In this document: positions 15,351 to 28,187 of the stretch, piece by piece | How positions within the stretch are numbered: position 1 is the first letter of the stretch | Layout: the number at the start of each line of letters is the position of its first letter | Assembly: GCA_018268465.1 (NCBI GenBank) | Contig: JAFDWN010000033.1 | Location: forward strand, 65,165 to 129,164 | Reading direction: 5' to 3' | DNA length: 64,000 nucleotides | Origin: Actinomycetota bacterium | GTDB taxonomy: Bacteria > Actinomycetota > Actinomycetes > Mycobacteriales > Mycobacteriaceae | The notes under the pieces: generated by a model | Databases searched by the model: none | The model's input: the letters and a program-made list of their open reading frames with translations, nothing else | Told to the model about the DNA's origin: nothing | Position numbers and translations under genes: made by a program

Positions 15351-15878
15351 CGCTTGACGTCCACCGGCGGTGTCAGCCTGGTGCTGGCGGTCGGATCCCG
15401 TAGACCCGGCCGCGGCGTCGCCGGATTCCGAGCTGGATGACGCCTCGTGGTGGCCGGTCTTGTCGTGCGGCCACTTACCGTGCGCCGTGCCGGTGCCGGG
15501 GGCAGGCAGCCGGTCGGTCAGCGTGGGCGCGTCGGGTTCGCCGACAGCGGGAATCCACGCGTCGGGTTCGCGGTTTTCGGCGGCCACCGCCCCGGGCGGA
15601 GGCACCCTGTCCGCCGTCGCCATCGCTCCCGGCTCGATCATCGCGCGCAGCAGGGTCGCCGAGCCCTCCGGCGGGCATCCGCGTGCGGGTCCGCCTGCGG
15701 CGGGTCCGGCGGTGTGAGTCGAAGACTGCGGCGACGTCGCCGTCATCGACGGTCCGTAGCTCGCAGCGCCCCACGCGGGGGCCGCGCCGGCAGGAGCTGC
15801 CGCGACGCTGCCGAGTGCGCCCGTCAGCGCGGTGGTGGCGAGGAGTGCCGCGGCCCTACACAGGGTCGGTGGTGTCAT
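15336..15878 (-). CDS. Small secreted Ala/Pro-rich protein, unknown function
   Basis: About 180 residues from ATG 15878 (MTPPTLCRAAALLATTALTG). A Sec signal peptide is clear, with probable cleavage after APAGAA near residue 33. The mature part is low in hydrophobic residues, rich in Ala, Pro, Gly, Ser and Thr, with a charged histidine-containing stretch (GKWPHDKTGHHEASSSSES) near the C-terminus. No domain is recognised. An earlier in-frame ATG (15905) is possible. Because the 3' end runs into remnant sequence of the MBL pseudogene, the C-terminal tail may be recent. Confidence 0.55.
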   Translation of the reverse strand: MTPPTLCRAAALLATTALTGALGSVAAAPAGAAPAWGAASYGPSMTATSPQSSTHTAGPAAGGPARGCPPEGSATLLRAMIEPGAMATADRVPPPGAVAAENREPDAWIPAVGEPDAPTLTDRLPAPGTGTAHGKWPHDKTGHHEASSSSESGDAAAGSTGSDRQHQADTAGGRQAGQSA

Positions 15879-16147
15879 GGGGATCCGCTCTCTGACGTTG
15901 CGCAATGGCTATTCACCCGCAGGCGATTCGGCACCACTATCCGGCACGAGCGAACTCCTCACCATCGGCCGATCGGCGGATAAAACAGATGACCCTCCGT
16001 CGGTGACCTCACAGCCCACCTGCCGGGCCGGCGTGGCCTGCCATGGTCCGTCCGCGCCGTACCGCCGGTGTCGTATGACATGTCACTGCCTCTGGCGCTG
16101 AAGAATTCACTGATCGATCGCGGTGAACCGGACGGCGGCCGGTGCGA

Positions 16148-16202
16148 TGAGCACAATGCGCAAAAGCGTCAAATCGACTGTTGTGCGGCTTGTGCGCACA
16201 AG
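16148..16202 (+). promoter_or_regulatory. 55-bp regulatory element, copy A
   Basis: First of three ungapped 55-bp copies. It opens with TGAGCACAATGCGCA and ends with the palindrome TTGTGCGCACAA (16190-16201). TTGTGC half-sites occur at 16151 (reversed), 16181, 16190 and 16196 (reversed). It matches copy B at 48/55 and copy C at 46/55 positions. It points towards the operon at 16291, with 88 nt to the start codon, and a -10-like box lies 25 nt after its end. Likely activator binding site; the protein is inferred to be the response regulator at 23867. Confidence 0.75.
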
Positions 16203-16227
16203 CGAGCCAGGGGGTGCGGCCCGACCG

Positions 16228-16233
16228 TAGCTT
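16228..16233 (+). promoter_or_regulatory. Predicted -10 box (TAGCTT) of the element-A promoter
   Basis: TAGCTT in the context CCGTAGCTTCGG, 25 nt downstream of element A. The same CCGTA context and spacing recur at copies B (TAGTTT, 25 nt) and C (TAACTT, 24 nt), which makes a chance match unlikely. No recognisable -35 is present, as expected for an activator-dependent promoter. Confidence 0.55.
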
Positions 16234-16290
16234 CGGATCAGCCGGTTCACGACGAACTGCACCAGCAAATCCCGAAGTAAGGAGAGCACG

Positions 16291-17121
16291 ATGACGAACC
16301 CCTCGACACCGCCCCGCACCGACCGGTGGTGGGCCACCGGGACCGTCCCGCTGGACAGCCCGACGCTTGCCGCCCCTGCCGCCGGGGGGATCGACACTTC
16401 GGCGCGCACGATGGCTATGCCGGTCTACCGCGGAGACTTCGCGTGGTCCTCAGAGGTGGCGCAGCCAACTGCCGACGCGGCGGTCGCAGCCCCTGCCGAC
16501 GGCGCCCCGGACGCGTCGGCAGGGATGCTCGCGCGTGCTCTGCGCCCGCGGGTGCTGGCTGCCGCTGTCGGCGGTGTCGCCGCCGCGGCGGCCGTCGGTA
16601 TCTTCCTCATCCCGCACAGTGGTGCTTCCGCACCTGTCGCGGTCGACACGTCCACGGTCACCGCGCCCGCGTCGACGGCCGCCCCCGCCCCCGCCAAAGT
16701 GGTCACGGCGCCGGCCGCACCCCGCGCTGTGCAGCCCACCCACGCGGCCGCCCCCGCCAGTCACGCCGCGACGCCGTCCGCCACGGCGCCGGCTCCGTCG
16801 ACATGGAGCCAGCACGGTGACGCGACGTGGAGCTCACGCGGTGATCAGAACTGGCAGACCCGCGGTGACCGGGATTGGCGTACCCCGGATGATGACTGGC
16901 GTTCCTCGGGCGATCGGGACGGGCAGAGCGGCGGGAACCGGAACTGGCAGTCCCGCCAGGATCAGGATTCGCAATCCCGCGGGGATCAGGATTCGCAGTC
17001 GCGCGGGGATCAGGATTCGCAGTCGCGCCATGACGCCGGGACTCTCCCGACGTGGAACTGGAACTTCTATCAGCCGCCGAAACACAGTCGCGATCGCGAC
17101 GCGTCGTCCGACACCTTCTGA
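16291..17121 (+). CDS. Single-pass membrane protein with repetitive SRGDQ-rich outer domain
   Basis: A 276-residue protein with AAGGAG 6 nt before its ATG. The N-terminal ~85 residues are soluble, then one transmembrane helix (VLAAAVGGVAAAAAVGIFLI, ~88-108), an Ala/Pro/Thr-rich spacer (~115-170), and a polar C-terminal tail built of degenerate W-SRGDQ units (TWSSRGDQNWQTRGD), ending in three near-perfect 8-residue repeats. No family is recognised. The layout (inside domain, helix, extended outer tail) suggests a cell-envelope protein. It is the first gene behind element A and lies 18 bp before an MFS transporter, so it probably belongs to the same response. Confidence 0.75.
   Translation: MTNPSTPPRTDRWWATGTVPLDSPTLAAPAAGGIDTSARTMAMPVYRGDFAWSSEVAQPTADAAVAAPADGAPDASAGMLARALRPRVLAAAVGGVAAAAAVGIFLIPHSGASAPVAVDTSTVTAPASTAAPAPAKVVTAPAAPRAVQPTHAAAPASHAATPSATAPAPSTWSQHGDATWSSRGDQNWQTRGDRDWRTPDDDWRSSGDRDGQSGGNRNWQSRQDQDSQSRGDQDSQSRGDQDSQSRHDAGTLPTWNWNFYQPPKHSRDRDASSDTF
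16960..17029 (+). repeat. 24-bp tandem repeat, about three copies
   Basis: Units start at 16960, 16984 and 17008 with GATCAGGATTCGCA; the last is slightly short. They encode DQDSQSRG repeats in the C-terminal tail of the membrane protein. Copies 2 and 3 are nearly identical, so copy number may vary between strains. Confidence 0.85.
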
Positions 17122-17139
17122 CGAAAGAGATCACCCGAG

Positions 17140-18540
17140 ATGACTACCACTCTGCGGACCGATAACCCGCTGCACGTCAACGACATCGGCGCCCGGCTGG
17201 ACAACCTCGCGGTGGGGCCGGTCCACCGAAAGGTGGTGGTCGCCATCGGGCTGGGACTGTTCTTCGAGGTCTACGAGATTTTCCTGTCCAGCACCATCGC
17301 CACCGCATTGAAGACCCAGTACGGCCTCGGAGGTATGGCCCTGCAGGCGCTAATGGCTTCGTCGTTCGTCGGGATGTTCATCGGCGCAGCGGTTTTCGGC
17401 CGTGTCGCGGACCGGCTGGGCCGGCGGCGGGCATTCCTGGTCAACCTCGTCTGGTTCTCCGTGTGGAGCCTGGTCGCCGCGGTCGCCCCGAATCCGCTGA
17501 TTCTCGTCGCGGCGCGCTTCATGGCGGGTATCGGGGTCGGCGCCGAGTACCCGGTGGCCGACGCCTATCTCTCCGATGTCCTCCCCAAGGCGCACCGCGG
17601 GCGGCTGTCGGCCTGGGCCTATACCTGTTCCTTCGTTGCCGTCCCGGCGCTCGGGTTTCTGTCCCTGGCGCTCACGGGGCACCGCGTTCTCGGAATGGAC
17701 GGCTGGCGAGTCCTGCTGGTCGTCGGTGCGGTCGGTGCGGTCGTCGTGATCGCCATTCGACGCGGGTTGCCCGAATCGCCGCGCTGGCTGGCGGGCGTGG
17801 GGCGCACAGAAGAGGCGCGTGCCGCGCTGCGGGTGCTCGAGACCGGGCTGACGACCCCGGCAGACGACACGCGCCGAAACGTCGACGCCGCGTCGGCGCC
17901 ACACGCGGCAGCCGAACCGCGTCCGACGGTGAACCCCGTTCGGCGCCTGGGTCAACGACCCTATCGGCAACGGCTGGCGATGCTCGGGGTGTTCCACCTG
18001 TTCCAACCGTTCGGCTACTACGGATTCGGCACCCTGGCCGCCCTGGTGCTGGTCAGTCGCGGATATGACGTCACATCGTCGTTGTTGTTCACGGCACTGT
18101 CGTTCATCGGATATCCGGTCGGATCGCTGCTCTCGATCCCCCTGTTGAAGCGGTTCGAACGTAAGTACCTGGTGATGGCGAGTGTTGTGGTGATGGCCGT
18201 GTGCGGTGTGCTGTTCGCCACCGTGCACACCCCGGCGCTCATCGTGACATTCGGACTGCTGACGACCGCGGCGAGCAACGTGTTCTCGAACATCTACCAC
18301 GTCTACCAGGCCGAGATCTTCCCGAGCGATGTCCGGGCAACCGCCGTCGGCTGGACCTACTCCGTGTCGCGGCTGTCCAGTGCGGCCCTGCCCTTCATCC
18401 TCATCCCCGTCCTGGACACCTACGGTCCCACGGCGATGTTCGGGGTCGTCCTGGCGGCGCTGGCCGTCACCATCGCGGTGGTTGCTCCCTTCGGTCCCCG
18501 CACGACGGGCCGCAGCCTCGAAGAGATCAACCCGGTCTGA
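17140..18540 (+). CDS. MFS transporter, metabolite:H+ symporter type
   Basis: A 466-residue carrier with ~12 transmembrane helices. The MFS loop motif GRVADRLGRRRAF lies between helices 2 and 3; ARFMAGIGVGAEYPVADAYLSD (helix 4) and RRGLPESPRWLAGVG fit the sugar/aromatic-acid symporter branch. A polar central loop (~225-270) separates the halves. The gene follows the membrane protein by 18 bp and is therefore controlled by element A. The family includes niacin, aromatic acid and dicarboxylate carriers; substrate is not decided. A strong hairpin follows the stop. Confidence 0.9.
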   Translation: MTTTLRTDNPLHVNDIGARLDNLAVGPVHRKVVVAIGLGLFFEVYEIFLSSTIATALKTQYGLGGMALQALMASSFVGMFIGAAVFGRVADRLGRRRAFLVNLVWFSVWSLVAAVAPNPLILVAARFMAGIGVGAEYPVADAYLSDVLPKAHRGRLSAWAYTCSFVAVPALGFLSLALTGHRVLGMDGWRVLLVVGAVGAVVVIAIRRGLPESPRWLAGVGRTEEARAALRVLETGLTTPADDTRRNVDAASAPHAAAEPRPTVNPVRRLGQRPYRQRLAMLGVFHLFQPFGYYGFGTLAALVLVSRGYDVTSSLLFTALSFIGYPVGSLLSIPLLKRFERKYLVMASVVVMAVCGVLFATVHTPALIVTFGLLTTAASNVFSNIYHVYQAEIFPSDVRATAVGWTYSVSRLSSAALPFILIPVLDTYGPTAMFGVVLAALAVTIAVVAPFGPRTTGRSLEEINPV

Positions 18541-18560
18541 GCCCGGTCCACCGGATCTGC

Positions 18561-18592
18561 GTGCCGGCCTCCATCTAGTGGGAGGCCGGCAC
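18561..18592. terminator. Bidirectional terminator-like hairpin
   Basis: A perfect 12-bp stem, GTGCCGGCCTCC (18561-18572) and GGAGGCCGGCAC (18581-18592), with an 8-nt loop. It sits between the convergent MFS and PPOX genes and is followed by GCTTTCGT on the plus strand. It probably ends transcripts from both sides. Confidence 0.75.
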
Positions 18593-18637
18593 GCTTTCGT
18601 CGTTGCCGCCGGTAATACCAACGAAAAGCCAAGCCGG

Positions 18638-19093
18638 CTAGCCGCGTTCGATCCTTCGCAGCCCGTGCGCGGGGGTCCACCACTCCACGACGAGCAGCGT
18701 CGCTTCCGCGTTGAGGTGGGTATGCACAACCTCGGCGATGTCGGCGTGGAAGAGTTCGCCGTCGGGTTCGTCGGCGACCGGGCCGGATACGATCGCCCGC
18801 CCGGAGATTTTCGCCTCACCCGGCCATTGCGCCTCGGAACCCTCGATCGGATCGACCGTGGCACTGTGTAAGGCGAACCGTGGGTCGCGGCGCAGATCCG
18901 CACCTTTACGCGCATTCGGCATCGATCCGAAGACCAGGATCCCGTCCTCGAATGCCGCCTCGATTCCGGAGATTCGCGGTGACCCGTCGGCTCGCAGTGT
19001 CGCGATGGTTTTGTGCTTGTGCGCATCGAAGAGCACCCGCACGGACCGTGCGAAATCCGGCGCTGACTCTTCGACGTCTCGCCACGTCGCCAT
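18638..19093 (-). CDS. Pyridoxamine 5'-phosphate oxidase-fold protein
   Basis: A 151-residue split-barrel flavin/deazaflavin-binding protein from ATG 19093 (MATWRDVEESAPDFA). Typical features are the N-terminal strand pair KTIATLRADGSPRISGIEA and the following GILVFGSMPNARKGADLRRDPRFALHS, then a short C-terminal WW segment. Many mycobacterial members use F420 or bind haem; which cofactor applies is not visible. It is convergent with the MFS carrier and divergent from the DUF222/HNH gene. Confidence 0.85.
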   Translation of the reverse strand: MATWRDVEESAPDFARSVRVLFDAHKHKTIATLRADGSPRISGIEAAFEDGILVFGSMPNARKGADLRRDPRFALHSATVDPIEGSEAQWPGEAKISGRAIVSGPVADEPDGELFHADIAEVVHTHLNAEATLLVVEWWTPAHGLRRIERG

Positions 19094-19237
19094 CGGTCCA
19101 TGATCGCACCCGCGGGTGGGCGAGCTCGGTCGGCACCCGGTGGCGCAGATGAGGCCGGATGGTGCGGCAGCTGGGCGATCCCGTTCGCAGGGATCGCGAC
19201 GGCGATTCTTGTCATACCCGGGTGGGAGGATGGTGCT

Positions 19238-20566
19238 ATGTCCACCGCCGCAACTTCTTTCGGGGATGTTGGGGATGTCGGGGATGTCGGGGATGAGGTG
19301 CGACCGTGTGACCGGTTGGAGACGTTGTTCGACGAGATCGCGGAGCTGATGGGGCAGCGCAATGCGATCGATGGCCGGTTGGTGCAGATCGTTGCCGAGA
19401 TCGACGGCCAGCAGATGTGGGGTAGCACGGGATGTCGTTCGATCGCGGCGTTGGTGGCGTGGCGCACCGGCATGGCCCCGCGCAACGCCGAGACGGTCGT
19501 GGCGATCGCCAACCGCATCGAGGAGTTTCCTCGCCTCACGCAGGGGATGGCACAGGGGCGGCTGTCGTTGGATCAGGTCGGGGTGATCGCCGAATATGCC
19601 GCGGACGGGTCCGATGAGCACTATGCCGCATTGGCGCCTGTCGCGACGGTCACTCAGTTGCGCACGGCGGTCAAGCTCGAACCGCGGCCGGCGAAGAAGC
19701 CGAAACCCGAACCGAAGGCGGAGTTCACCCGCATCGAGGACGGTGAGTTCACCACCTACCGGATCCGGCTCCCGAAGGTGGAGGCGGCGAAGTTCGATGC
19801 CGCGCATCGGGCGCACCGGGATGGGTTGATCGCAGACTGGAAACGTGATCGGGATCCGGGGTTCGACCCGGAGGCCGCGGACGAGCAGGACGAGCAGGAC
19901 GAACGCATGGCGCCACCGGAGCAGGCGCCGCCGTTTCCGAGCACTGTGGAGGCGTTCATGAGTCTTGTCGAGGCAGGCTGGGACACCGAGGTGGCCGCGC
20001 GCCCGCACAGCGCGCACGCCACCCTGATGGTGCATGTCGACGTGGACAAGCCCGTTGCCTCACTTCATCTGGGTCCGCTGCTGTCCGACGACGAGCGGCA
20101 GTTTCTGGGCTGCGATGCGACATGTGAGGTGTGGTTCGAACGTTGCGGTCAGCTGATCGGGTCCGGCCGCACCACCCGCACCATCTCCCGCCGGTTGCGG
20201 CGGGCATTGGAGCACCGTGACACGACGTGCGTGGTGCCCGGCTGCGGCGCCACCCGGGGTTTGCATGCCCATCACATCGTGCACTGGGAAAATGGCGGTG
20301 CCACCGAACTCGACAACATGGTGCTGGTCTGCCCGTTTCATCACCGGCTGCACCATAAGGGTGGGATCACCATCACCGGACCCGCCGACCGGCTCGCCGT
20401 CAGCGACAGTCGTGGCCGGCAACTGACCGGCGGATCCTTGGCCCGCCCACCCACCGGGTCACCACCCGACGTCCCACCGTGTCGCGGCCCGTTGGGTGAA
20501 GACGCGGAATGGTGGTGGTACACACCCTTTGAACCACCGGCGGATAGCCAGGTCGAGCCGTCGTAA
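19238..20566 (+). CDS. 13E12-family DUF222/HNH endonuclease domain protein
   Basis: A 442-residue protein: DUF222 (~20-330) then an HNH nuclease domain with CVVPGCGATRGLHAHHIVHW and LDNMVLVCPFHHRLHH, which keeps the zinc cysteines and the catalytic His-Asn-His set. ATG 19238 follows GGGAGGA. This family is present in multiple copies in mycobacterial genomes and is suspected to be mobile or recombination-prone, but its biological role is unknown. An acidic DEQDEQDE stretch near residue 217 separates the two halves. It lies inside the transport block without clear functional connection. Confidence 0.9.
   Translation: MSTAATSFGDVGDVGDVGDEVRPCDRLETLFDEIAELMGQRNAIDGRLVQIVAEIDGQQMWGSTGCRSIAALVAWRTGMAPRNAETVVAIANRIEEFPRLTQGMAQGRLSLDQVGVIAEYAADGSDEHYAALAPVATVTQLRTAVKLEPRPAKKPKPEPKAEFTRIEDGEFTTYRIRLPKVEAAKFDAAHRAHRDGLIADWKRDRDPGFDPEAADEQDEQDERMAPPEQAPPFPSTVEAFMSLVEAGWDTEVAARPHSAHATLMVHVDVDKPVASLHLGPLLSDDERQFLGCDATCEVWFERCGQLIGSGRTTRTISRRLRRALEHRDTTCVVPGCGATRGLHAHHIVHWENGGATELDNMVLVCPFHHRLHHKGGITITGPADRLAVSDSRGRQLTGGSLARPPTGSPPDVPPCRGPLGEDAEWWWYTPFEPPADSQVEPS
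19262..19297 (+). repeat. 9-bp tandem repeat at the 5' end of the DUF222 gene
   Basis: Four units GGGGATGTT, GGGGATGTC, GGGGATGTC, GGGGATGAG encode GDVGDVGDVGDE. Because the unit is a multiple of three, expansion or contraction would keep the frame. Confidence 0.85.
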
Positions 20567-20616
20567 GGGGGTGCCCGTCGCGGGTCGTGCCTGTTGGGGC
20601 GCACTGGTCTGGACGC

Positions 20617-22029
20617 TCAGATGGTCGTCCGCGGCGAACGCCCTCGCAGCCGGCGGTAGCCACCCAACGCGATCCCCAGCACCAGCCAGCAGACGCCGAC
20701 GATCTTGGCGTTGGTGTCCGCCTCCCACAATGCCACCAGCAGGATCGCCGAACCGAGAACCGGCGAGATCACATGGGTGAACCACCGCCTTCCGGTGGGA
20801 CGGCGGAGGAAATGCGCGACCACGCTGGCGTGGAGCAGGATGTAGGACAGCAGGGCACCGAATGTCACCAGCGTGGTCAACAACCCGGCCTGGCGCACAC
20901 CGACGATCCCGATGCCCAAGGCAAGGGCCGCGATCAAGATCATGGCGTTGACCGGGACCCGCCGTGCGCCGCTCACGCGCGCCAGAAACGCGGGCAGATG
21001 GCCGTCCCTGGCCATGCTGTAGACCAGCCGCGCTGCGGTGGTGTTGGCCGCGATGAGATTGCCCATCGCCGCCACCAGCGCCGAGTTGAGCACCACGAAC
21101 ATCTTGAACTGACTGTCCATGGCGGTGCCGACCAGATCGTAGAAGGCGTTGTTCGCGGCGGTACCGTCGGCGAAGCGAGAGCCGCCGGGCACCAAGATGC
21201 ATGCCGCGTAGACCTGGATGACGAAAAGCGCGGTGGAGCCGTACATCACGATCATCGTGGCCTTCGACACCGCCTTGCCGCCGCCCTTGGCCTCCTCGTT
21301 GAGCGTCGAGATCGCATCGAAGCCAAGGAAACTGAATGCGGCCACCGGAACAGCGCCGGCGACCATCGCCCAGGACGCCCCGCCGTGCGGACGGAAGGGG
21401 TCCAGCGAGAGATGCGCCTGGCCCGTTGCCACCAGAACAACTGCCCAGCAAAGGAACACGGCGAGAATGAGGAGCTGGACATAGAGGAAGACCGTGTTCA
21501 TCTTCGCGGTCACGCCGATACCCATCACATTGGTCAGTGCGCTCACCGCGACGAAGAAGACCACCCACACCCAGGCGGGCACGCTGGGTACCACCGTGGT
21601 CATCGCGCTGGCCGACAGCACGCACAGCAGAGCGGGCAACAGCAGATAGTCCAGCAGGATCGCCCAGCCGGAGACGAATCCGAGAAAACGGTTGGTGGCC
21701 AGGCTGACATAGCTGTAGGTCGATCCCGAAACGGGGAAGCGCTGCGCCATCTCCTTGTAGCTGATCGCGCTGAACAGCATCGCGACGGCCGCCACGACGT
21801 ATACCGCGGCGACCGCCCCGGCCGACATGTCATAAATGATCCCGAACACTCCGATGGGCGCCAGCGGCACCATATAGATCAGGCCGTGGATCACGAGGTC
21901 GCGCACGCTGAGGCGGCGCGCGAGTTCCGGCTCGTAGCCCAGCTCGCGCAGCCGCGCCGCGCCGTCGTCGGGGCCGGGAGACGCGGTGGTGTCGCCCGGC
22001 GGTGTCGGTGTGGACGACCGTGTCTGCAT
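20617..22029 (-). CDS. APC-superfamily amino acid/organic cation permease
   Basis: A 470-residue permease with ~12 helices. The helix-1 region LIYMVPLAPIGVFGIIYDMS carries the family's substrate loop, and helix 6 has AFSFLGFDAISTLNEEAKGG, a hallmark of APC carriers. RLVYSMARDGHLPAFLARVS precedes helix 9. ATG 22029 follows a ~40-residue polar N-terminus. Element B and its -10 box lie just upstream and point at this gene, 90 nt from the start codon. Substrate class is probably an amino acid or amine; the sequence does not specify it. Confidence 0.9.
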   Translation of the reverse strand: MQTRSSTPTPPGDTTASPGPDDGAARLRELGYEPELARRLSVRDLVIHGLIYMVPLAPIGVFGIIYDMSAGAVAAVYVVAAVAMLFSAISYKEMAQRFPVSGSTYSYVSLATNRFLGFVSGWAILLDYLLLPALLCVLSASAMTTVVPSVPAWVWVVFFVAVSALTNVMGIGVTAKMNTVFLYVQLLILAVFLCWAVVLVATGQAHLSLDPFRPHGGASWAMVAGAVPVAAFSFLGFDAISTLNEEAKGGGKAVSKATMIVMYGSTALFVIQVYAACILVPGGSRFADGTAANNAFYDLVGTAMDSQFKMFVVLNSALVAAMGNLIAANTTAARLVYSMARDGHLPAFLARVSGARRVPVNAMILIAALALGIGIVGVRQAGLLTTLVTFGALLSYILLHASVVAHFLRRPTGRRWFTHVISPVLGSAILLVALWEADTNAKIVGVCWLVLGIALGGYRRLRGRSPRTTI

Positions 22030-22088
22030 CGGGAACTCCTCGGTGATGTCGTCGGCTCTGCGGGACGGCTCCGCGACCCGCCCGACCG

Positions 22089-22094
22089 AAACTA
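22089..22094 (-). promoter_or_regulatory. Predicted -10 box (TAGTTT) of the element-B promoter
   Basis: On the minus strand TAGTTT lies in CCGTAGTTTCGG, 25 nt from element B, the same spacing and context as at copy A. It would drive the APC permease gene. Confidence 0.55.
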
Positions 22095-22119
22095 CGGACA
22101 GCCCAATCCCGTTGGCACG

Positions 22120-22174
22120 CTTGTCCGCACAAGCCGCACAAGCGGCGATTTCGAGCTTTTGCGCATTGTGCTCA
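22120..22174 (-). promoter_or_regulatory. 55-bp regulatory element, copy B
   Basis: Minus-strand copy of the element: TGAGCACAATGCGCAAAAG at 22174-22156 and TTGTGCGGACAA at 22132-22121, where one base breaks the palindrome. It is directed at the APC permease. Its other edge is only 10 bp from the -10 box of the sensor kinase gene, so a bound regulator would block that divergent promoter. Confidence 0.75.
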
Positions 22175-22184
22175 GGTGTGCGGG

Positions 22185-22199
22185 TACGCTCTGCGCATG
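22185..22199 (+). promoter_or_regulatory. Probable leaderless promoter -10 for the sensor kinase
   Basis: TACGCT (22185-22190) lies 6 nt before ATG 22197, and no ribosome site is present. Element B ends at 22174, over the expected -35 position. Confidence 0.5.
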
Positions 22200-23885
22200 G
22201 CAGGGAGCCGCCGCATCGATGTCCGGCTCGCGACCCAGGTGCTCGTGCTGCAACTCGCGGTGGTGGCCATCACCCTGGTGATCGCGTTCGGGCTGTTCGC
22301 GGTGTTCAGCCATCAACGAATCGCCAGCGAGTACGGGATCCGCGCCCTGGATATGGCGCGGGTGGTCGCGGCCGCGCCGGCCGTGCGTGCCGACGTCGCC
22401 CGCTACGACCAGAACCCGCTGCCGCCCGGTAGGGCCGCTGTCGACGAACTGGCTGGCGGTCCGCTGCAGGCGATCGCGACGGAGGTCCAGCGGCGCACGG
22501 ACGTACTGTTCGTGGTCATCACGGACAACCACGGCATCAGGCTGGCCCACCCGGACCGCGACGAATTGGGTGAACGAGTCAGCACCGATCCATCCGAAGC
22601 CCTCGAGGGCCGCGAAGTGGTGCTGCACCAATCCGGCACGCTCGGTCCGTCGGTACGCGCGAAAGTGCCGATCCTGGCCCCTGATTCGAATCGGGTGGTC
22701 GGCGAGGTCAGTGTCGGGATCTCCACCGCCGCGGTGCACGCGCAGCTGTTCAGCAACCTACGGGCGTCGGCTGTGCTGGGCGGGGTGGCACTACTCGTCG
22801 GCGCCGTCGGGTCGGTCCTGCTCGCGCGGCGTTGGCGGGGCCTCACCCTGGGCCTGCGCCCGACCGAGATGGCCGAGTTGGTGCGCAGCCAGGCCGCGGT
22901 ATTGCACGGGATCGGTGAAGGTGTGCTGGCCGCCGACCCGTCCTGGCATACCACCTTCGTCAACGACGAGGCGAGCCGGCTGCTGCAGATCGGCGGGGAA
23001 ACCGGCCGGCCCGTGGCCGAGATCGGTTTGACGCCACGTGTCCTCGACGTGTTCAGCGCGGCCGACTCGGCACCGACACTGGCCACGGTGGGCGAACGCA
23101 TCGTGGTGGTGTCGGCCAGGCCGGTGACCCGGGACGGACATGACCTCGGCACGGTTCTGGTGGTGCGCGACCGCACCGACGTCGAATCCCTGACCCGCCA
23201 ACTCGACGCCGTCCAGCTGATGAGCACGGTGTTGCGCGCTCAACGCCACGAGTTCGCCAACCGTCTGCACCTGCTCAACGGTCTGCTGCACAGCGGCCAC
23301 ACCGAAGAGGCGGCGCAGTACCTGGAGGAGCTGCTGGGATCGGGTCCGCTGGGTTCGGCGCTGCCCGGCATCGACGCCATCCGCGACGCCTATCTGCAGG
23401 CGTTCCTCGCGGCCAAGGCGGCGGCCGCCAGGGAGGCCGGCGTGACGCTGACGATCGGCGAGAATACCTGGGTGTCAGGCCGTCTCGTACTCCCCGTCGA
23501 CGTGACGACGGTGCTGGGCAACCTCCTCGACAATGCGATCGACGCGGCCAGGATCGCGGCGAACGCCACCAAGGTGGTGGAGGTCGAGTTGGTTCAGGAA
23601 GGGTCGACACTGCACGTCACCGTGGCCGACAGCGGAGACGGTGTCGCGCCCGATTTCGTGAGCGAGCTGTTCACCGAGGGCACGTCGACCAAACCGGACT
23701 CCGGGATCCCAGGAGGCCGCGGTATCGGGCTGGCGCTCTCGCGTCAGCTCAGCCGATCCCTCGGCGGCGACCTGCGGCTGTCGAGCCTGGGCGATCCCGC
23801 GGCCGAACTGTGCGGCGCCGAATTCATCGCCCGGCTGCCGGGTGTGATCGTCGAGGAGGAGTCCCAATGGGCAGCGCAGAACTAA
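22197..23885 (+). CDS. CitA/DcuS-family sensor histidine kinase
   Basis: A 562-residue membrane sensor of the carboxylate-sensing family. TM1 is at ~13-37. An extracytoplasmic PAS/Cache-type domain (~40-187) contains the signature LFVVITDNHGIRLAHPDRDELGE. TM2 is at ~191-211, followed by a cytoplasmic PAS domain (~225-325). The phosphoacceptor His351 lies in LRAQRHEFANRLHLLNGLL, diagnostic for this family, and the ATPase domain has NLLDNAIDAA, DSGDG and GRGIGLALSRQL. Relatives detect citrate, C4-dicarboxylates or malate. The response regulator gene overlaps its 3' end by 19 nt, so they are co-translated. Three matching promoter elements nearby mark the likely targets. Confidence 0.93.
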   Translation: MAGSRRIDVRLATQVLVLQLAVVAITLVIAFGLFAVFSHQRIASEYGIRALDMARVVAAAPAVRADVARYDQNPLPPGRAAVDELAGGPLQAIATEVQRRTDVLFVVITDNHGIRLAHPDRDELGERVSTDPSEALEGREVVLHQSGTLGPSVRAKVPILAPDSNRVVGEVSVGISTAAVHAQLFSNLRASAVLGGVALLVGAVGSVLLARRWRGLTLGLRPTEMAELVRSQAAVLHGIGEGVLAADPSWHTTFVNDEASRLLQIGGETGRPVAEIGLTPRVLDVFSAADSAPTLATVGERIVVVSARPVTRDGHDLGTVLVVRDRTDVESLTRQLDAVQLMSTVLRAQRHEFANRLHLLNGLLHSGHTEEAAQYLEELLGSGPLGSALPGIDAIRDAYLQAFLAAKAAAAREAGVTLTIGENTWVSGRLVLPVDVTTVLGNLLDNAIDAARIAANATKVVEVELVQEGSTLHVTVADSGDGVAPDFVSELFTEGTSTKPDSGIPGGRGIGLALSRQLSRSLGGDLRLSSLGDPAAELCGAEFIARLPGVIVEEESQWAAQN

Positions 23886-24550
23886 CCGTGCTGGTGGTCG
23901 ACGACGACTTCCGCGTCGCCAATATGCACGCCGGAATCGTCGATGCGCTACCGGGATTCACCGTGACGACGACCGTCAACACACTCGCTGCCGCGCGCAA
24001 GGCCGATCCGGTCGACCTCGCTCTGGTCGATGTGTACCTGCCCGACGGGTCCGGCATCGATTTCGTCCGCGAGCTCACCACCGACAGCATGGTGTTGACG
24101 GCCGCGACCGAAGCCGTGAGCGTTCGGGCCGCGCTCGCCGCCGGAGCCCTCAGCTATCTGGTGAAACCCTTTCCGCCCGCCGAACTCGCCGCGCGACTCG
24201 CCGGCTACGCCCGCTACCGCAAGATCCTCGCGGGCGCCAACCTCGGCCCCGGTGACATCGACGCGGCGGTGGACGCCCTACGGCCCAGGATCGCCGCCGC
24301 GCAGCCGTCCACCGCTGCCCCCTCCCCCACCAAACAACTTGTGCTGCAGGCGCTGAGAGCGTCGGGTAAGCCGATGTCGTCGGCCGAGGTCTCCGCGGCG
24401 ATCGGGGTGTCGAGGGCAACCGCCCAGCGCTACCTGGCGAATCTGGCCAGCGCCGGTGACGTCAAGATCGGGTTGCGCTACGGCACCACCGGACGCCCCG
24501 AACAGGAGTTCGTCGCCGCCGAGAAACCTCCACAGCGACCTCCCCGGTGA
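23867..24550 (+). CDS. CitB/DcuR-family response regulator
   Basis: A 227-residue partner of the preceding kinase. ATG 23867 has GAGGAGGAG just upstream, inside the kinase gene. The receiver domain has acidic residues VVDDD at 11-14, phosphoacceptor Asp55 (LALVDVYLPDG) and Lys100 (SYLVKPF). The C-terminal domain (~165-215) is a helix-turn-helix (MSSAEVSAAIGVSRATAQRY) followed by GTTGRPEQEF, as in CitB/DcuR regulators. It is the best candidate to bind the three 55-bp elements at 16.1, 22.1 and 26.8 kb; that link is inference. Confidence 0.92.
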   Translation: MGSAELTVLVVDDDFRVANMHAGIVDALPGFTVTTTVNTLAAARKADPVDLALVDVYLPDGSGIDFVRELTTDSMVLTAATEAVSVRAALAAGALSYLVKPFPPAELAARLAGYARYRKILAGANLGPGDIDAAVDALRPRIAAAQPSTAAPSPTKQLVLQALRASGKPMSSAEVSAAIGVSRATAQRYLANLASAGDVKIGLRYGTTGRPEQEFVAAEKPPQRPPR

Positions 24551-24568
24551 CCGCGGCGCCGACCGCGA

Positions 24569-25666
24569 TCACGCCCCGGTGACGACCGCGGGCACCGTAT
24601 CGAGCGCCCTGGCCCGCCGCCGAATCAGCCATCCGATGAACTTCGGGATCATCCCGGCCGCCAGCACCATCGTCACCAGACGCAGTACCTGCAGGGTCAC
24701 CACAATGGGGCCGGAATGCACCTCGTTGGCGATGGCGAGCACGCCGTAGATACCGCCCGGCGTGGTCGCCAGGTAGGCGTCGGCCAACGAAACCCCTGCC
24801 CACTGGCTCACCGCGACCGCCACCGCGAAGCAACTCGCAATCGTCAGGGCGATGAACGTCAGCGTCAACGGGATGAGCCGGACGAACCGGCGCAGCACGT
24901 CGACCGCGAACCCGCCGCCGGCCTGCCAGCCGATCACCACGTAGGCGATACCGGTCACCACCGAATTCGGGGCCATCAAGGCGTCCAGCGACGGGCTGGC
25001 GATCGCCAGCGCTCCGGCGGCGACCAGCGGTCCCAACAAGAACGGTGCCGGCATCCGGATGACCCGGGCCAGATGTCCGGCGGCGATGATCAGCGCCGCC
25101 AGCGCGGCCAGCCCAGCCAGACTCCAGCTGTCCTGCGCCGCAACCAATTGCGGCGTCGGGTCGGCGGTGCCCAACTGGCCGAGGACGATCGGCATCGACA
25201 GCACGACGATCGTGAGGCGCAGGTACTGGGACAAGGCGACGTAACGCTCGTCGGCGCCGAGTTCACGCGCCATGCACGAAATGGTGCTGGCGCCCCCGGC
25301 GATGAGTGACAGGTTCGCCGTCGCCACGCCGAGGTCGGGCGCCCAGCGGGCGAGCACGATGCCGAACACGACGCTGAGGCCGAGCGTGATCGTGATGGAG
25401 AAGGCGGCGCATCCGGCGAAGTGCACGAGGTCGGACCCGGTGAGTTTGGTCAGCGGCTCGACGGCGACCACGCCGATGACGCCTTGCGCAGCCGACATCG
25501 CCCGTGGCGGCGGATTGAGCTCGCGTCGCGAGATCAACGCGGTCGCGGCAGCGCCCAACATGCCGGCGATCAACCAGCCCGCGGGCAGGCCCACCTTGCT
25601 GAACACGACACCCAATGTGACGATCAGGACCGCGGCACAGATCCATCGTCGATATCCATTCAACAT
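24569..25666 (-). CDS. AbrB-family membrane protein (putative transporter)
   Basis: A 365-residue integral membrane protein with ~10 helices in two related halves, each containing the AbrB duplication pattern: LPAGWLIAGMLGAAATA in the first half and MPAPFLLGPLVAAGALA in the second. PGGIYGVLAIANEV and AGGASTISCMARELGAD are matching loop segments. E. coli AbrB has been linked to regulation and its family to ammonia/organic acid transport, but no substrate is firmly established. It starts 5 nt after the PrpF-family gene and is co-transcribed from element C. Its role is probably uptake or export of the compound handled by that isomerase. Confidence 0.85.
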   Translation of the reverse strand: MLNGYRRWICAAVLIVTLGVVFSKVGLPAGWLIAGMLGAAATALISRRELNPPPRAMSAAQGVIGVVAVEPLTKLTGSDLVHFAGCAAFSITITLGLSVVFGIVLARWAPDLGVATANLSLIAGGASTISCMARELGADERYVALSQYLRLTIVVLSMPIVLGQLGTADPTPQLVAAQDSWSLAGLAALAALIIAAGHLARVIRMPAPFLLGPLVAAGALAIASPSLDALMAPNSVVTGIAYVVIGWQAGGGFAVDVLRRFVRLIPLTLTFIALTIASCFAVAVAVSQWAGVSLADAYLATTPGGIYGVLAIANEVHSGPIVVTLQVLRLVTMVLAAGMIPKFIGWLIRRRARALDTVPAVVTGA

Positions 25667-25671
25667 GACGG

Positions 25672-26739
25672 TCAACGTTTCTCGTCGTCGGGCAGTTCGC
25701 AGAACGCGGTTCCGTCGAACAGTTTGCGCGCGGTCGATGTGATGGCCGCGCCGACCGGCGCATCGCCGTCGAGTGTCACCTCCAGCTCGATGATGCCGCC
25801 GGGGTGCTCGATCGACACCGCCCCGCCGGCGGCGGGTGCGTCGACCAGGTCGAAGGCCACGGTGCCCGGGATCGACAGCGCCGACGCCAGATTGATCGCG
25901 CCGGACACCGCGTGCGCGGGGTGGCACGATGTCGGTACCAGGTAGCGCGACCGGATGTCGGCGGTCCGCGACGCGGACACCAGCATGACCTTCGGCACCA
26001 CCTTCCCGGCCACGTCGCCCATGCCCATCAACTCGCCCGCCTTGCGGCGGATGCGCTCGACCCGGGCGAGCAGGGCATCGTCGGCATTGATCTCGGCGGG
26101 GCTCTCCCCGCCGGTCAACCCGACGTCGGTGGCGCGCAGCAGCACCGCACACACACCCGCGTCGACGCAGCTGACTTCGATGCCGTCCACGAAGTCCATC
26201 CGATGTCCGGTCGGGAACAATGCGCCCGCGGTTCCGCCCGCGAAGTCGGTGAAGGTCAGGCGCACCGGCGCCGCGCCGCCGGCGACGCCGGCGATCCTTG
26301 TGGCGCCGGCATATTCGACGGCTCCGTCCGGCGTGCGGACCGTGGCCACCACCCGGGCCCCGGTGTTGACCAGGCGGATCCGCACCGCGGTCGTGGTTCC
26401 CGCCACGTCCACCAGACCCCGTTCGATCGCGAACGGTCCGACCCCGGCAAGGATGTTGCCGCAGGTCGGAACCCGGTCCACCGCTCCGGTCTGGGGATCG
26501 ACCTGAGCGAAGAGGTAGTCGATATCGATGCCGGGCTCGGCAGAACGCCCGACGATCGCCACCTTGCTCGTCGTCGTCGCGGCGCCGCCGAGCCCGTCGA
26601 TCTGCCGCGGCGCACCGCCCATCAGCGCCGACAACACCGCGTCCAGGGAACCCTCATACGTTCCGAGATCGTCGCGGAGCAGATACACCCCCTTCGAAGT
26701 TCCCCCTCGAAATTGCATGGCAGGCAATGAGATAAACAC
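25672..26739 (-). CDS. PrpF-family isomerase (4-oxalomesaconate tautomerase/aconitate isomerase-like)
   Basis: A 355-residue protein of the DapF-like PrpF fold, which shifts double bonds or cis/trans geometry in unsaturated tricarboxylates. GTG 26739 starts FISLPAMQFRGGTSKGVYLL, aligning with the family N-terminus (PA-x-MRGGTSKG). The conserved GGAATTTSKVAI (Lys59) and PTCGNILAGVGPF (Cys93) are kept. Known members isomerise methylaconitate, trans-aconitate or oxalomesaconate, so a carboxylate substrate fits the CitA-type sensor next door. Element C lies 64 nt upstream of the start. The gene forms an operon with the AbrB-family gene. Confidence 0.9.
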   Translation of the reverse strand: MFISLPAMQFRGGTSKGVYLLRDDLGTYEGSLDAVLSALMGGAPRQIDGLGGAATTTSKVAIVGRSAEPGIDIDYLFAQVDPQTGAVDRVPTCGNILAGVGPFAIERGLVDVAGTTTAVRIRLVNTGARVVATVRTPDGAVEYAGATRIAGVAGGAAPVRLTFTDFAGGTAGALFPTGHRMDFVDGIEVSCVDAGVCAVLLRATDVGLTGGESPAEINADDALLARVERIRRKAGELMGMGDVAGKVVPKVMLVSASRTADIRSRYLVPTSCHPAHAVSGAINLASALSIPGTVAFDLVDAPAAGGAVSIEHPGGIIELEVTLDGDAPVGAAITSTARKLFDGTAFCELPDDEKR

Positions 26740-26773
26740 TTTGATACTCCGTTTCTCCGGCTTTCCAGGCCCA

Positions 26774-26779
26774 AAGTTA
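26774..26779 (-). promoter_or_regulatory. Predicted -10 box (TAACTT) of the element-C promoter
   Basis: Minus-strand TAACTT in GCCGTAACTTTGG, 24 nt from element C. It parallels the boxes at copies A and B. Confidence 0.55.
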
Positions 26780-26803
26780 CGGCGATCGGGCAACCGATTC
26801 GCG

Positions 26804-26858
26804 GTTGTGCGCACAACCCGCACAACCAGCGATTTGCGACTTCTGCGCATTGTGCTCA
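26804..26858 (-). promoter_or_regulatory. 55-bp regulatory element, copy C
   Basis: Minus-strand copy: TGAGCACAATGCGCAGAAG at 26858-26840 and a perfect TTGTGCGCACAA palindrome at 26816-26805. It is directed at the PrpF/AbrB operon. The divergent flavoprotein gene starts 105 bp away on the other side and could also be affected. Confidence 0.75.
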
Positions 26859-26963
26859 CGGATCGCGGGGCGGGTATGAGCGGTGCGTCGCGCGCAGTGC
26901 GACGGCCTGACAGGATGGGGACGATGCGAAGCACAACACCGCGGCGCCGCTGCGCACGCGCCC

Positions 26964-28187
26964 ATGAATAGCGTCGTCGTCATCGGCTCGGGGTTCGCCG
27001 GGCTGTGGGCGGCGCTGGGTGCCGTACGTCGACTGGACGAACTCGGGGTCCCTCCCGACGCCGTGGACGTCACCGTGCTGAGCGACAAACCGTTTCACGA
27101 CATCCGCGTCCGCAACTACGAGCCCGATCTCACCGACTGTCGGATTCCGCTGGGCGCGGTGCTGGACCCCGCAGGTGTCGCCCACGTCACCGCCACCGTG
27201 ACGGGTATCGACTCGCACGCCCGAACGGTGACGATGATCGGCGTCGACGGGCAGACGACAACCCGAGGGTACGACCGCCTCGTGGTGGCGCCGGGCAGTC
27301 GGGTGTTCCGGCCCGACGTCCCTGGTCTGGCCGAATTCGCCTTCGACGTGGACACCTACGACGGCGCGACGGCGCTCGCCGACCATCTCGCAGCCCTCGC
27401 CGACACCGGGGTCACTCCGCTCGCGGCGACCGCCGTCGTCGTGGGGGCGGGCCTCACGGGAATCGAGACGGCATGCGAACTCCCCGGCAGGCTCGCAGCG
27501 GTGTTCGCCGGGCACCGGGTCACACCGCGTGTGGTCCTCGTCGACCACAGCCCGGCCGCGGGTTCGGATATGGGCGAATCGGCACGTCCTGTCATCGAAT
27601 CGGCACTGGTGGACAACGGGGTCGAGGTGAAGGCCGGTGTGCGGGTCGCCGCGATCGACGAGGGGGGTGTCGTCCTGTCGTCGGGCGAGCGAATCCCCGC
27701 GGCGACCGTGGTGTGGTGTGCGGGGATGCGGGCCAGCCCGCTGGCCGCCCAGCTGCCGGTCGGCGCGGACCGGTTGGGGCGGGTACCGGTCGACGGCTAT
27801 CTGCGGGTGATCGGTGTGCCTGGCGTTTTCGCGGCCGGCGATGTCGCGGTCGCGAGGATGGACGATGAGCACCACTCGGTCATGTCGTGTCAGCACAGCC
27901 GCCCGATGGGCCGCTACGCCGGCTACAACGTCGTCAGCGATCTGCTGGGCGCCCCCATGCTCGAATTGCGCATCCCCTGGTACGTCACCGTTCTCGACCT
28001 CGGTCCCGCCGGGGCGGTGTACACCGAGGGGTGGGACCGTCATGTGGTGTCGCGGGGAGCCGAAGCCAAGGCGACCAAGACAACGATCAACACCGCGCGG
28101 ATCTACCCTCCGCTCGACGGCGATCGCGCCGCGCTACTGGCCGCCGCGGCCCCCGCCTTGCAGCAGCGGCCCGAGGTCGGCCGCTAG
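26964..28187 (+). CDS. NAD(P)/FAD-dependent oxidoreductase, NDH-2-like
   Basis: A 407-residue two-dinucleotide-fold flavoprotein. FAD motif VVVIGSGFAGLWAAL is at residues ~4-18, the NAD(P) motif AVVVGAGLTGIETA at ~157-170, and the second FAD motif PGVFAAGDVAVAR near 288. The pattern resembles type II NADH dehydrogenases and related quinone reductases, which pass electrons from NADH to membrane quinone. The C-terminal membrane-anchoring helix of classical Ndh is not obvious, so the exact activity is open. ATG 26964 is the first good start after element C; no clear ribosome site precedes it. Confidence 0.88.
   Translation: MNSVVVIGSGFAGLWAALGAVRRLDELGVPPDAVDVTVLSDKPFHDIRVRNYEPDLTDCRIPLGAVLDPAGVAHVTATVTGIDSHARTVTMIGVDGQTTTRGYDRLVVAPGSRVFRPDVPGLAEFAFDVDTYDGATALADHLAALADTGVTPLAATAVVVGAGLTGIETACELPGRLAAVFAGHRVTPRVVLVDHSPAAGSDMGESARPVIESALVDNGVEVKAGVRVAAIDEGGVVLSSGERIPAATVVWCAGMRASPLAAQLPVGADRLGRVPVDGYLRVIGVPGVFAAGDVAVARMDDEHHSVMSCQHSRPMGRYAGYNVVSDLLGAPMLELRIPWYVTVLDLGPAGAVYTEGWDRHVVSRGAEAKATKTTINTARIYPPLDGDRAALLAAAAPALQQRPEVGR

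Follow-up and report, generated by a model that had tools for sequence, protein, structure and literature searches.

We identified a 55-bp repeat in a mycobacterial genome which we regard, with considerable confidence from comparative sequence analysis, as the operator half of a promoter module that depends on an activator and belongs to the adjacent CitA/CitB-type two-component system. Its three copies (A, B and C) in the window, i.e. the whole stretch of 64,000 nucleotides that was analysed, very probably serve as docking sites for the response regulator encoded next to them (Table 1).

Table 1. Elements, presumed promoter motifs and genes of the three transcription units and the two-component system in the window
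Feature	Position	Strand	Details
Element A	16148-16202	+	Profile R1 E=1.7e-19; A in R1 training set
Box 1 of element A	16148-16162	+	
Box 3 of element A	16190-16201	+	TTGTGCGCACAA
-10-like hexamer, promoter A	16228-16233	+	TAGCTT; initial TA and final T shared by all 49 aligned elements
276-aa ORF, first gene behind A	16291-17121	+	Low-complexity repeats
MFS transporter, behind A after the 276-aa ORF	17140-18540	+	PF00083 2.1e-51
APC-family permease, target of B	20617-22029	-	PF13520 3.2e-35
-10-like hexamer, promoter B	22089-22094	-	TAGTTT
Element B	22120-22174	-	R1 E=1.9e-18; B outside R1 training set
Element B, box 1 in kinase direction	22160-22174	+	Presumed autoregulatory operator
-10-like hexamer, presumed leaderless kinase promoter	22185-22190	+	TACGCT
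CitA/DcuS-type sensor histidine kinase	22197-23885	+	sCache_3_2, SPOB_a, HATPase_c
CitB/DcuR-type response regulator	23867-24550	+	PF00072 receiver (D55, K100), C-terminal HTH
AbrB-family membrane protein, second behind C	24569-25666	-	PF05145 3e-63, TIGR03082
PrpF-family protein, behind C	25672-26739	-	Likely GTG start at 26739
-10-like hexamer, promoter C	26774-26779	-	TAACTT
Element C	26804-26858	-	R1 E=8.3e-19; C in training set

The coordinates and strands that the initial annotation had assigned to the three copies were exact on recheck, as were its ungapped identities of 48/55 for A/B and 46/55 for A/C; B and C share 45/55, and the next-best 55-mer anywhere in the window, self-overlaps around the copies excluded, reaches at most 31/55. 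The sequence said to be common to one end of all copies, TGAGCACAATGCGCA, occurs without mismatch in the window at A, B and C only. Four TTGTGC/GCACAA half-sites per copy had been described, which holds exactly for A and C, while B has three and reads GGACAA at the fourth. The similarity goes beyond 55 bp: a divergent stretch is followed by a -10-like hexamer (TAnnnT) lying 24-25 bp downstream of the element in each copy and beginning at element position 81 (A and B) or 80 (C). The sites do look like the promoter elements they had been taken for, and the element is a module of about 90 bp consisting of a promoter and a predicted operator. Reading it as an RNA element was dropped, given its position upstream of the -10 and zero Rfam matches at gathering thresholds in 15500-27500.

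Comparison with relatives defines which parts of the module are conserved. We built a sequence-only profile of 96 positions, R1, from 49 element copies, which remained of 100 distinct copies after two removals of near-duplicates (the first leaving 72), leaving out two copies from relatives (L125, L139); window copy B and a further genomic copy, E, are not among the 49. All 49 aligned copies agree at G2, C5, A9, G11, C12, A17 and A18 of box 1, at T43, G47, A53 and A54 of the box 3 region and at T81, A82 and T86 of the -10. Across relatives box 1, box 3 with CACAAGCG and the -10 are kept and an AATCG centre is largely kept; an inverted repeat of four half-sites was ruled out as the conserved core since the central TTGTGC varies. 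The element is thus bipartite, with box 1 (TGAGCACAATGCGCA) and box 3 (CGCACAAGCG) similar to each other and about 45 bp apart; GAGCACAATGCGCA and GCGCACAAGCGCGA may represent direct repeats. Spacing between box 3 and the -10 is almost constant, and between box 1 and box 3 it differs by 1-2 bases among copies; judged by eye, the promoter module contains no -35. A transcription start about 7 nt past the -10, which we assume, would put the centre of box 3 near -41 and that of box 1 near -85, consistent with class-II activator geometry.

The next unit on the strand of each element holds a membrane protein, in line with the claim of a carrier or carrier-like protein: the MFS transporter for A, the APC permease for B and the PrpF-like protein together with the AbrB-family protein for C, PF05145 (AbrB) being, as we understand it, a membrane family despite its name. 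The best NCBIfam model of the PrpF-family protein is 4-oxalomesaconate tautomerase (409.4 bits, cut-off 440), and the 276-aa ORF behind A has no Pfam or NCBIfam match. Gene order like that of the A unit, including the region of the 276-aa ORF, recurs in one related locus (L069). The A and B units are separated by an ORF at 19100-20566 (+) and a small ORF at 18643-19092, the larger resembling what we take to be mycobacterial 13E12-repeat/HNH proteins; the stretch 18643-20566 looks inserted because the A-type unit directly adjoins the kinase in L069.

Element B sits in the divergent intergenic region between the APC permease and the sensor kinase. The kinase contains the domain set of its family (PF17203 1.3e-23, PF14689 5.3e-09, PF02518 3.4e-17) and a histidine, His 351, in an RHEF motif. 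Scoring 297.9 bits against the DcuS/MalK subfamily model (cut-off 520) and 179.2 against DpiB (cut-off 656), it is by sequence a family-level relative of these proteins and not an equivalog; the best NCBIfam model of the regulator is DcuR at 85.1 bits (cut-off 262). Structures of CitA and DcuS are among the matches of the sensor domain, whose pocket residues R115, H118, R154 and K156 align with the CitA chain, DcuS having RVF where CitA has RGK. We take R, H, R and K at these four CitA pocket positions to be citrate contacts. As the kinase keeps all four, its signal is likely citrate or a related tricarboxylate.

Across genomes the element goes with this regulator. In a genus sample of 296 genomes, 65 have the regulator (E<=1e-50), 77 the element (E<=0.001) and 61 both. 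Counting regulators of at least 60% identity, 61 genomes have both, one the regulator only, 16 the element only and 218 neither, i.e. the element is present in 61/62 genomes with and 16/234 without such a regulator (Fisher 5.5e-47, kinship ignored). No element at E<=0.001 was found in three genomes with regulators of 52-54% identity (G335, G337, G353) and one with 74% (G383). The R1 training copies come mostly from regulator-linked loci, a bias in favour of co-occurrence, and the filters were tightened, at the cost of weak matches, whenever a run covered more than 40 genomes. A model-free test avoids the training bias by using a 15-mer derived from the window (C or G at position 7), which is present in 40/65 genomes with the regulator (E<=1e-50) and in 18/231 others. 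R1 matches four of these 18 (G186, G278, G299, G349). Eight of nine 15-mer sites inspected in regulator-less genomes lack the full element (L127, L132, L133, L138-L142) and the ninth, L134, has it; a separate weak element lies near L139, and G278 carries full elements elsewhere. As a detector the raw 15-mer was rejected in favour of R1, being too strict (absent from 25/65 regulator genomes) as well as too loose.

In a family sample of 151 genomes, R1 matches 20 of the 52 with the regulator (E<=1e-50), leaving 32 without a match, and one of the 99 without it. Among the 21 genomes with a match, 20 have the nearest one 1.7-3.4 kb away from the regulator gene; 11 of these 20 near-regulator matches are weak (E 7e-4 to 1e-2), with regulators 47-61% identical to that of the window. 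No R1 match was found in three genomes with only ~40% paralogues of the regulator (G028, G050, G109). At least 56 of 80 fetched loci with a relative of the regulator contain the full element, and related promoters keep it, those of PrpF and an APC permease in L036, of PrpF and a repeat-ORF/MFS unit in L069 and of an MFS transporter in L024. Regulator plus element thus occurs in many mycobacteria and Nocardia. The CitA/DcuS-CitB-type pair, put forward in the initial annotation as the natural candidate to bind the sites, is by far the best candidate, since element and regulator gene both occur and lie together across genomes.

Box 1 also stands before the start of the kinase gene. In 57 of the 64 loci with a complete kinase start (nine with incomplete starts were dropped), a reverse-orientation box 1 with at most three mismatches lies 15-39 bp upstream of the start, in 36 of the 57 at 21-23 bp, against a chance expectation of about 5e-4 per locus; it is missing in seven of the 64. 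No full element is present there in 32 of the 57. The recurrence of box 1 before the kinase suggests autoregulation. A TAnnnT follows this box 1 at 9-11 bp in 38/57 loci, at 16-27 bp in 18 and at 3 bp in one. Because the TAnnnT ends a few bases before the start codon, we predict the kinase transcript to be probably leaderless; in the 9-11-bp group the spacing suggests that the putative operator box 1 overlies the -35 region of the kinase promoter.

In the model that we propose, the phosphorylated regulator would bind box 1 and box 3 cooperatively, box 1 being the primary site and box 3 a class-II activator site replacing the -35 contact. In copy B, box 1 read in reverse would overlie the -35 region of the kinase promoter, which we presume to be leaderless, and the system would accordingly probably repress or tune its own synthesis. 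The targets, i.e. the MFS, APC and PrpF-AbrB units and a distant organic-acid/H+ symporter, would import or process acids such as the presumed signal.

That a different or additional factor, such as a second or global regulator, binds the element, the two-component genes being merely members of the regulon or neighbours, we consider unlikely. The main evidence against the link to the regulator is the persistence of strong elements (E<=1e-10) in 12 of the 16 genus genomes that carry the element without a close regulator, and an abhydrolase-like gene follows the element in at least five of these 12. In three, regulator loss looks secondary by sequence: in L172 (G379) the left half of the element is fused to the box 1 sequence that otherwise precedes the kinase, in L170 (G408) the element now points at what is a neighbour of the kinase in other genomes, and G278 may retain a stop-containing remnant of the regulator ~15 kb from one element. 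The remaining nine, several of them with the element before an abhydrolase-like gene, count against the link without an explanation of this kind. Besides these scars, two findings argue against another factor: the element co-occurs almost perfectly with a single regulator orthologue but not with the ~40% paralogues, and the proximity of element and regulator holds down to 47% regulator identity. A scan of nine window proteins, the two ORFs at 18.6-20.6 kb apart, turned up no further DNA-binding regulator.

Invariant -10 letters at a near-fixed distance from box 3 in the 49 aligned copies would also fit a core promoter of an alternative sigma factor with box 3 and the -10 as its two contacts, which we consider very improbable: box 3 stops 25-27 bp short of the -10, a distance too large for a -35, conservation is strongest in box 1 about 65 bp upstream of the -10, and the lone box 1 before the kinase gene stands at a different distance from its own -10. 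Least probable of all, and already refuted by copy number and positional conservation, is a dispersed or mobile repeat lying near promoters by chance. Near-identical copies within 11 kb might suggest it, and the initial annotation had named many copies scattered away from transporter promoters as one observation that would speak against its reading. In the 6.9-Mb genome, however, R1 finds exactly five matches at E<=1, which leaves the promoter-element reading standing; moreover the similarity ends at element and -10, and the copies occupy corresponding positions in other species. The two copies outside the window lie on other contigs, D (E=3.4e-14) preceding a metabolite/H+ symporter gene (TIGR00883 399.9 bits, cut-off 443.45) and E (E=1.3e-11) a 53-aa ORF. 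GAGCACAATGCGCA is likewise found in exact form at five sites, and with up to two mismatches at 78 against 24 for a reversed control pattern. Six relatives chosen for high counts have 6 to 11 copies each, and like D and E they do not support the description of the regulon as local; the element is neither a dispersed repeat nor strictly local.

The presumed operator of the two-component system is conserved beyond transport targets. From regulator loci and selected genomes we assembled 131 distinct element copies. The set is redundant, and gene starts in it were called by a GC-position heuristic, so that target naming is approximate; the heuristic gave no ORF for three of the 131, window copy A included. 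Genes behind them cluster as ABC ATPases (22), PapA-like condensation proteins (19), MFS transporters (14), PE proteins (14), abhydrolases (13), MMPL proteins (13) and smaller groups, with family assignments checked on representatives. The transport theme of the initial annotation therefore stands for the window, whose targets are transport units, and gives way elsewhere to PapA-like, MMPL, PE, abhydrolase and small proteins. Sixty of 85 aligned kinases (L094 and rows without a readable N-terminal half left out) keep R, H, R and K, and 25 have Val at the second Arg, 14 of which also lack the pocket His. The Val-type sensors come from 25 Mycobacterium records, including M. szulgai, M. asiaticum, M. 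gordonae and M. colombiense, these and the other named species being presumably slow growers, and form one group in a quick tree (SH-aLRT 100).

The comparison of sensor pocket and targets covers the window plus 56 loci in which the kinase is readable and the element complete; eight loci with a readable kinase that lack the full element were left out. The 22 loci without R, H, R and K aim only at PE (9), MMPL (11) and PapA-like (8) genes and at an unnamed class (3) without Pfam or NCBIfam match, which we take for acyltransferase-like, and ABC, MFS, APC or PrpF targets occur only among the 35 loci with all four residues. PapA-like targets nevertheless occur in nine of these 35, alone or beside others, and an MMPL target in one (L026); judging from these loci, the targets seem to have started shifting before the pocket did. 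The shift of targets and pocket is essentially one event on the tree and not a statistical association. We give about an even chance to the reading that, in a clade of slow-growing Mycobacterium, the module of regulator and operator moved from citrate and organic-acid transport to envelope lipid and PE genes with a single-origin loss of the second citrate arginine (25/25 Val), a citrate switch turning into a sensor of another signal while its DNA code stayed fixed. It would be a clear case of regulon rewiring in which the operator is conserved and targets and sensor pocket change.

The two-component system belongs to a known citrate family and comes with an apparently undescribed operator module and an apparently rewired branch; a literature search, with most subscription papers outside its reach, returned no description of the element. 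The kinase/regulator architecture of the window pair is like that of C. glutamicum CitAB, known here by description, which activates citH and tctCBA; according to a 2012 review (PMC3353115), CitB binds both promoters and the exact motif of this CitB-class site had not been determined by then. For a CitB-type regulator in Mycobacteriales the module would supply a concrete DNA code that can be tested, and the 96-position model reads candidate regulons from genomes. In contrast to C. glutamicum, the window targets are the MFS, APC and PrpF-AbrB units, and no CitMHS gene was seen beside the two-component system. MaeKR, DcuSR and CitAB share with the window pair the sCache_3_2 sensor, SPOB_a and a CitB-type regulator with a C-terminal HTH. 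Repeated sites have a precedent in MaeR, which binds three direct repeats TTATT(A/T)AA (PMC5457438); those are short and AT-rich, whereas the window element is GC-rich and bipartite, its boxes being ~45 bp apart and its -10 following at a constant distance.

Twenty regulator regions were fetched from more distant family genomes. A box-1-like sequence lies upstream on the transporter-kinase-regulator strand in 13 of them, with 2-4 mismatches and in one case none, and is often shortened, such as TGAGCAAAACGCGCAAAACG...CTTACGCGCTCAAGCGTGACTG. At four mismatches one chance match per region is expected, so the weight rests on position and a shared TTAnGCGCTCAAGCGTGACTG-like continuation. In L224, L226 and L230 the best match is at the kinase end but on the opposite strand; inspection of L213, L215, L217 and L225 showed neither arrangement. 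All four neighbouring transporters tested are CitMHS (tandem in L211, L222 and L228, divergent in L226); L226 has a divergent citH/citA arrangement, with TGAGCTTTATGCGCACAAG, which has three mismatches in box 1, at the kinase end of the intergenic region.

Some further observations concern individual loci. In Nocardia and Mycobacteroides (L070-L075, L078-L091, L095) the divergent target is an ABC ATPase and the copies contain TGTGAC between box 3 and -10; the one ATPase scanned (L074) is nearest to taurine/nitrate-like models, under cut-off. Strong elements without a close regulator orthologue precede the abhydrolase-like gene in L151, L153, L158, L160 and L161, and in L172 and L170 the two-component genes appear deleted, one end of the deletion lying at an element and the other at box 1 on the kinase side or at the neighbour of the kinase. 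The targets in L195, L198, L203 and L207 are small proteins with signal-peptide-like N-termini, those of L203 and L207 without Pfam match, and in L192 the element stands before a protein with FHA and ABC ATPase domains.
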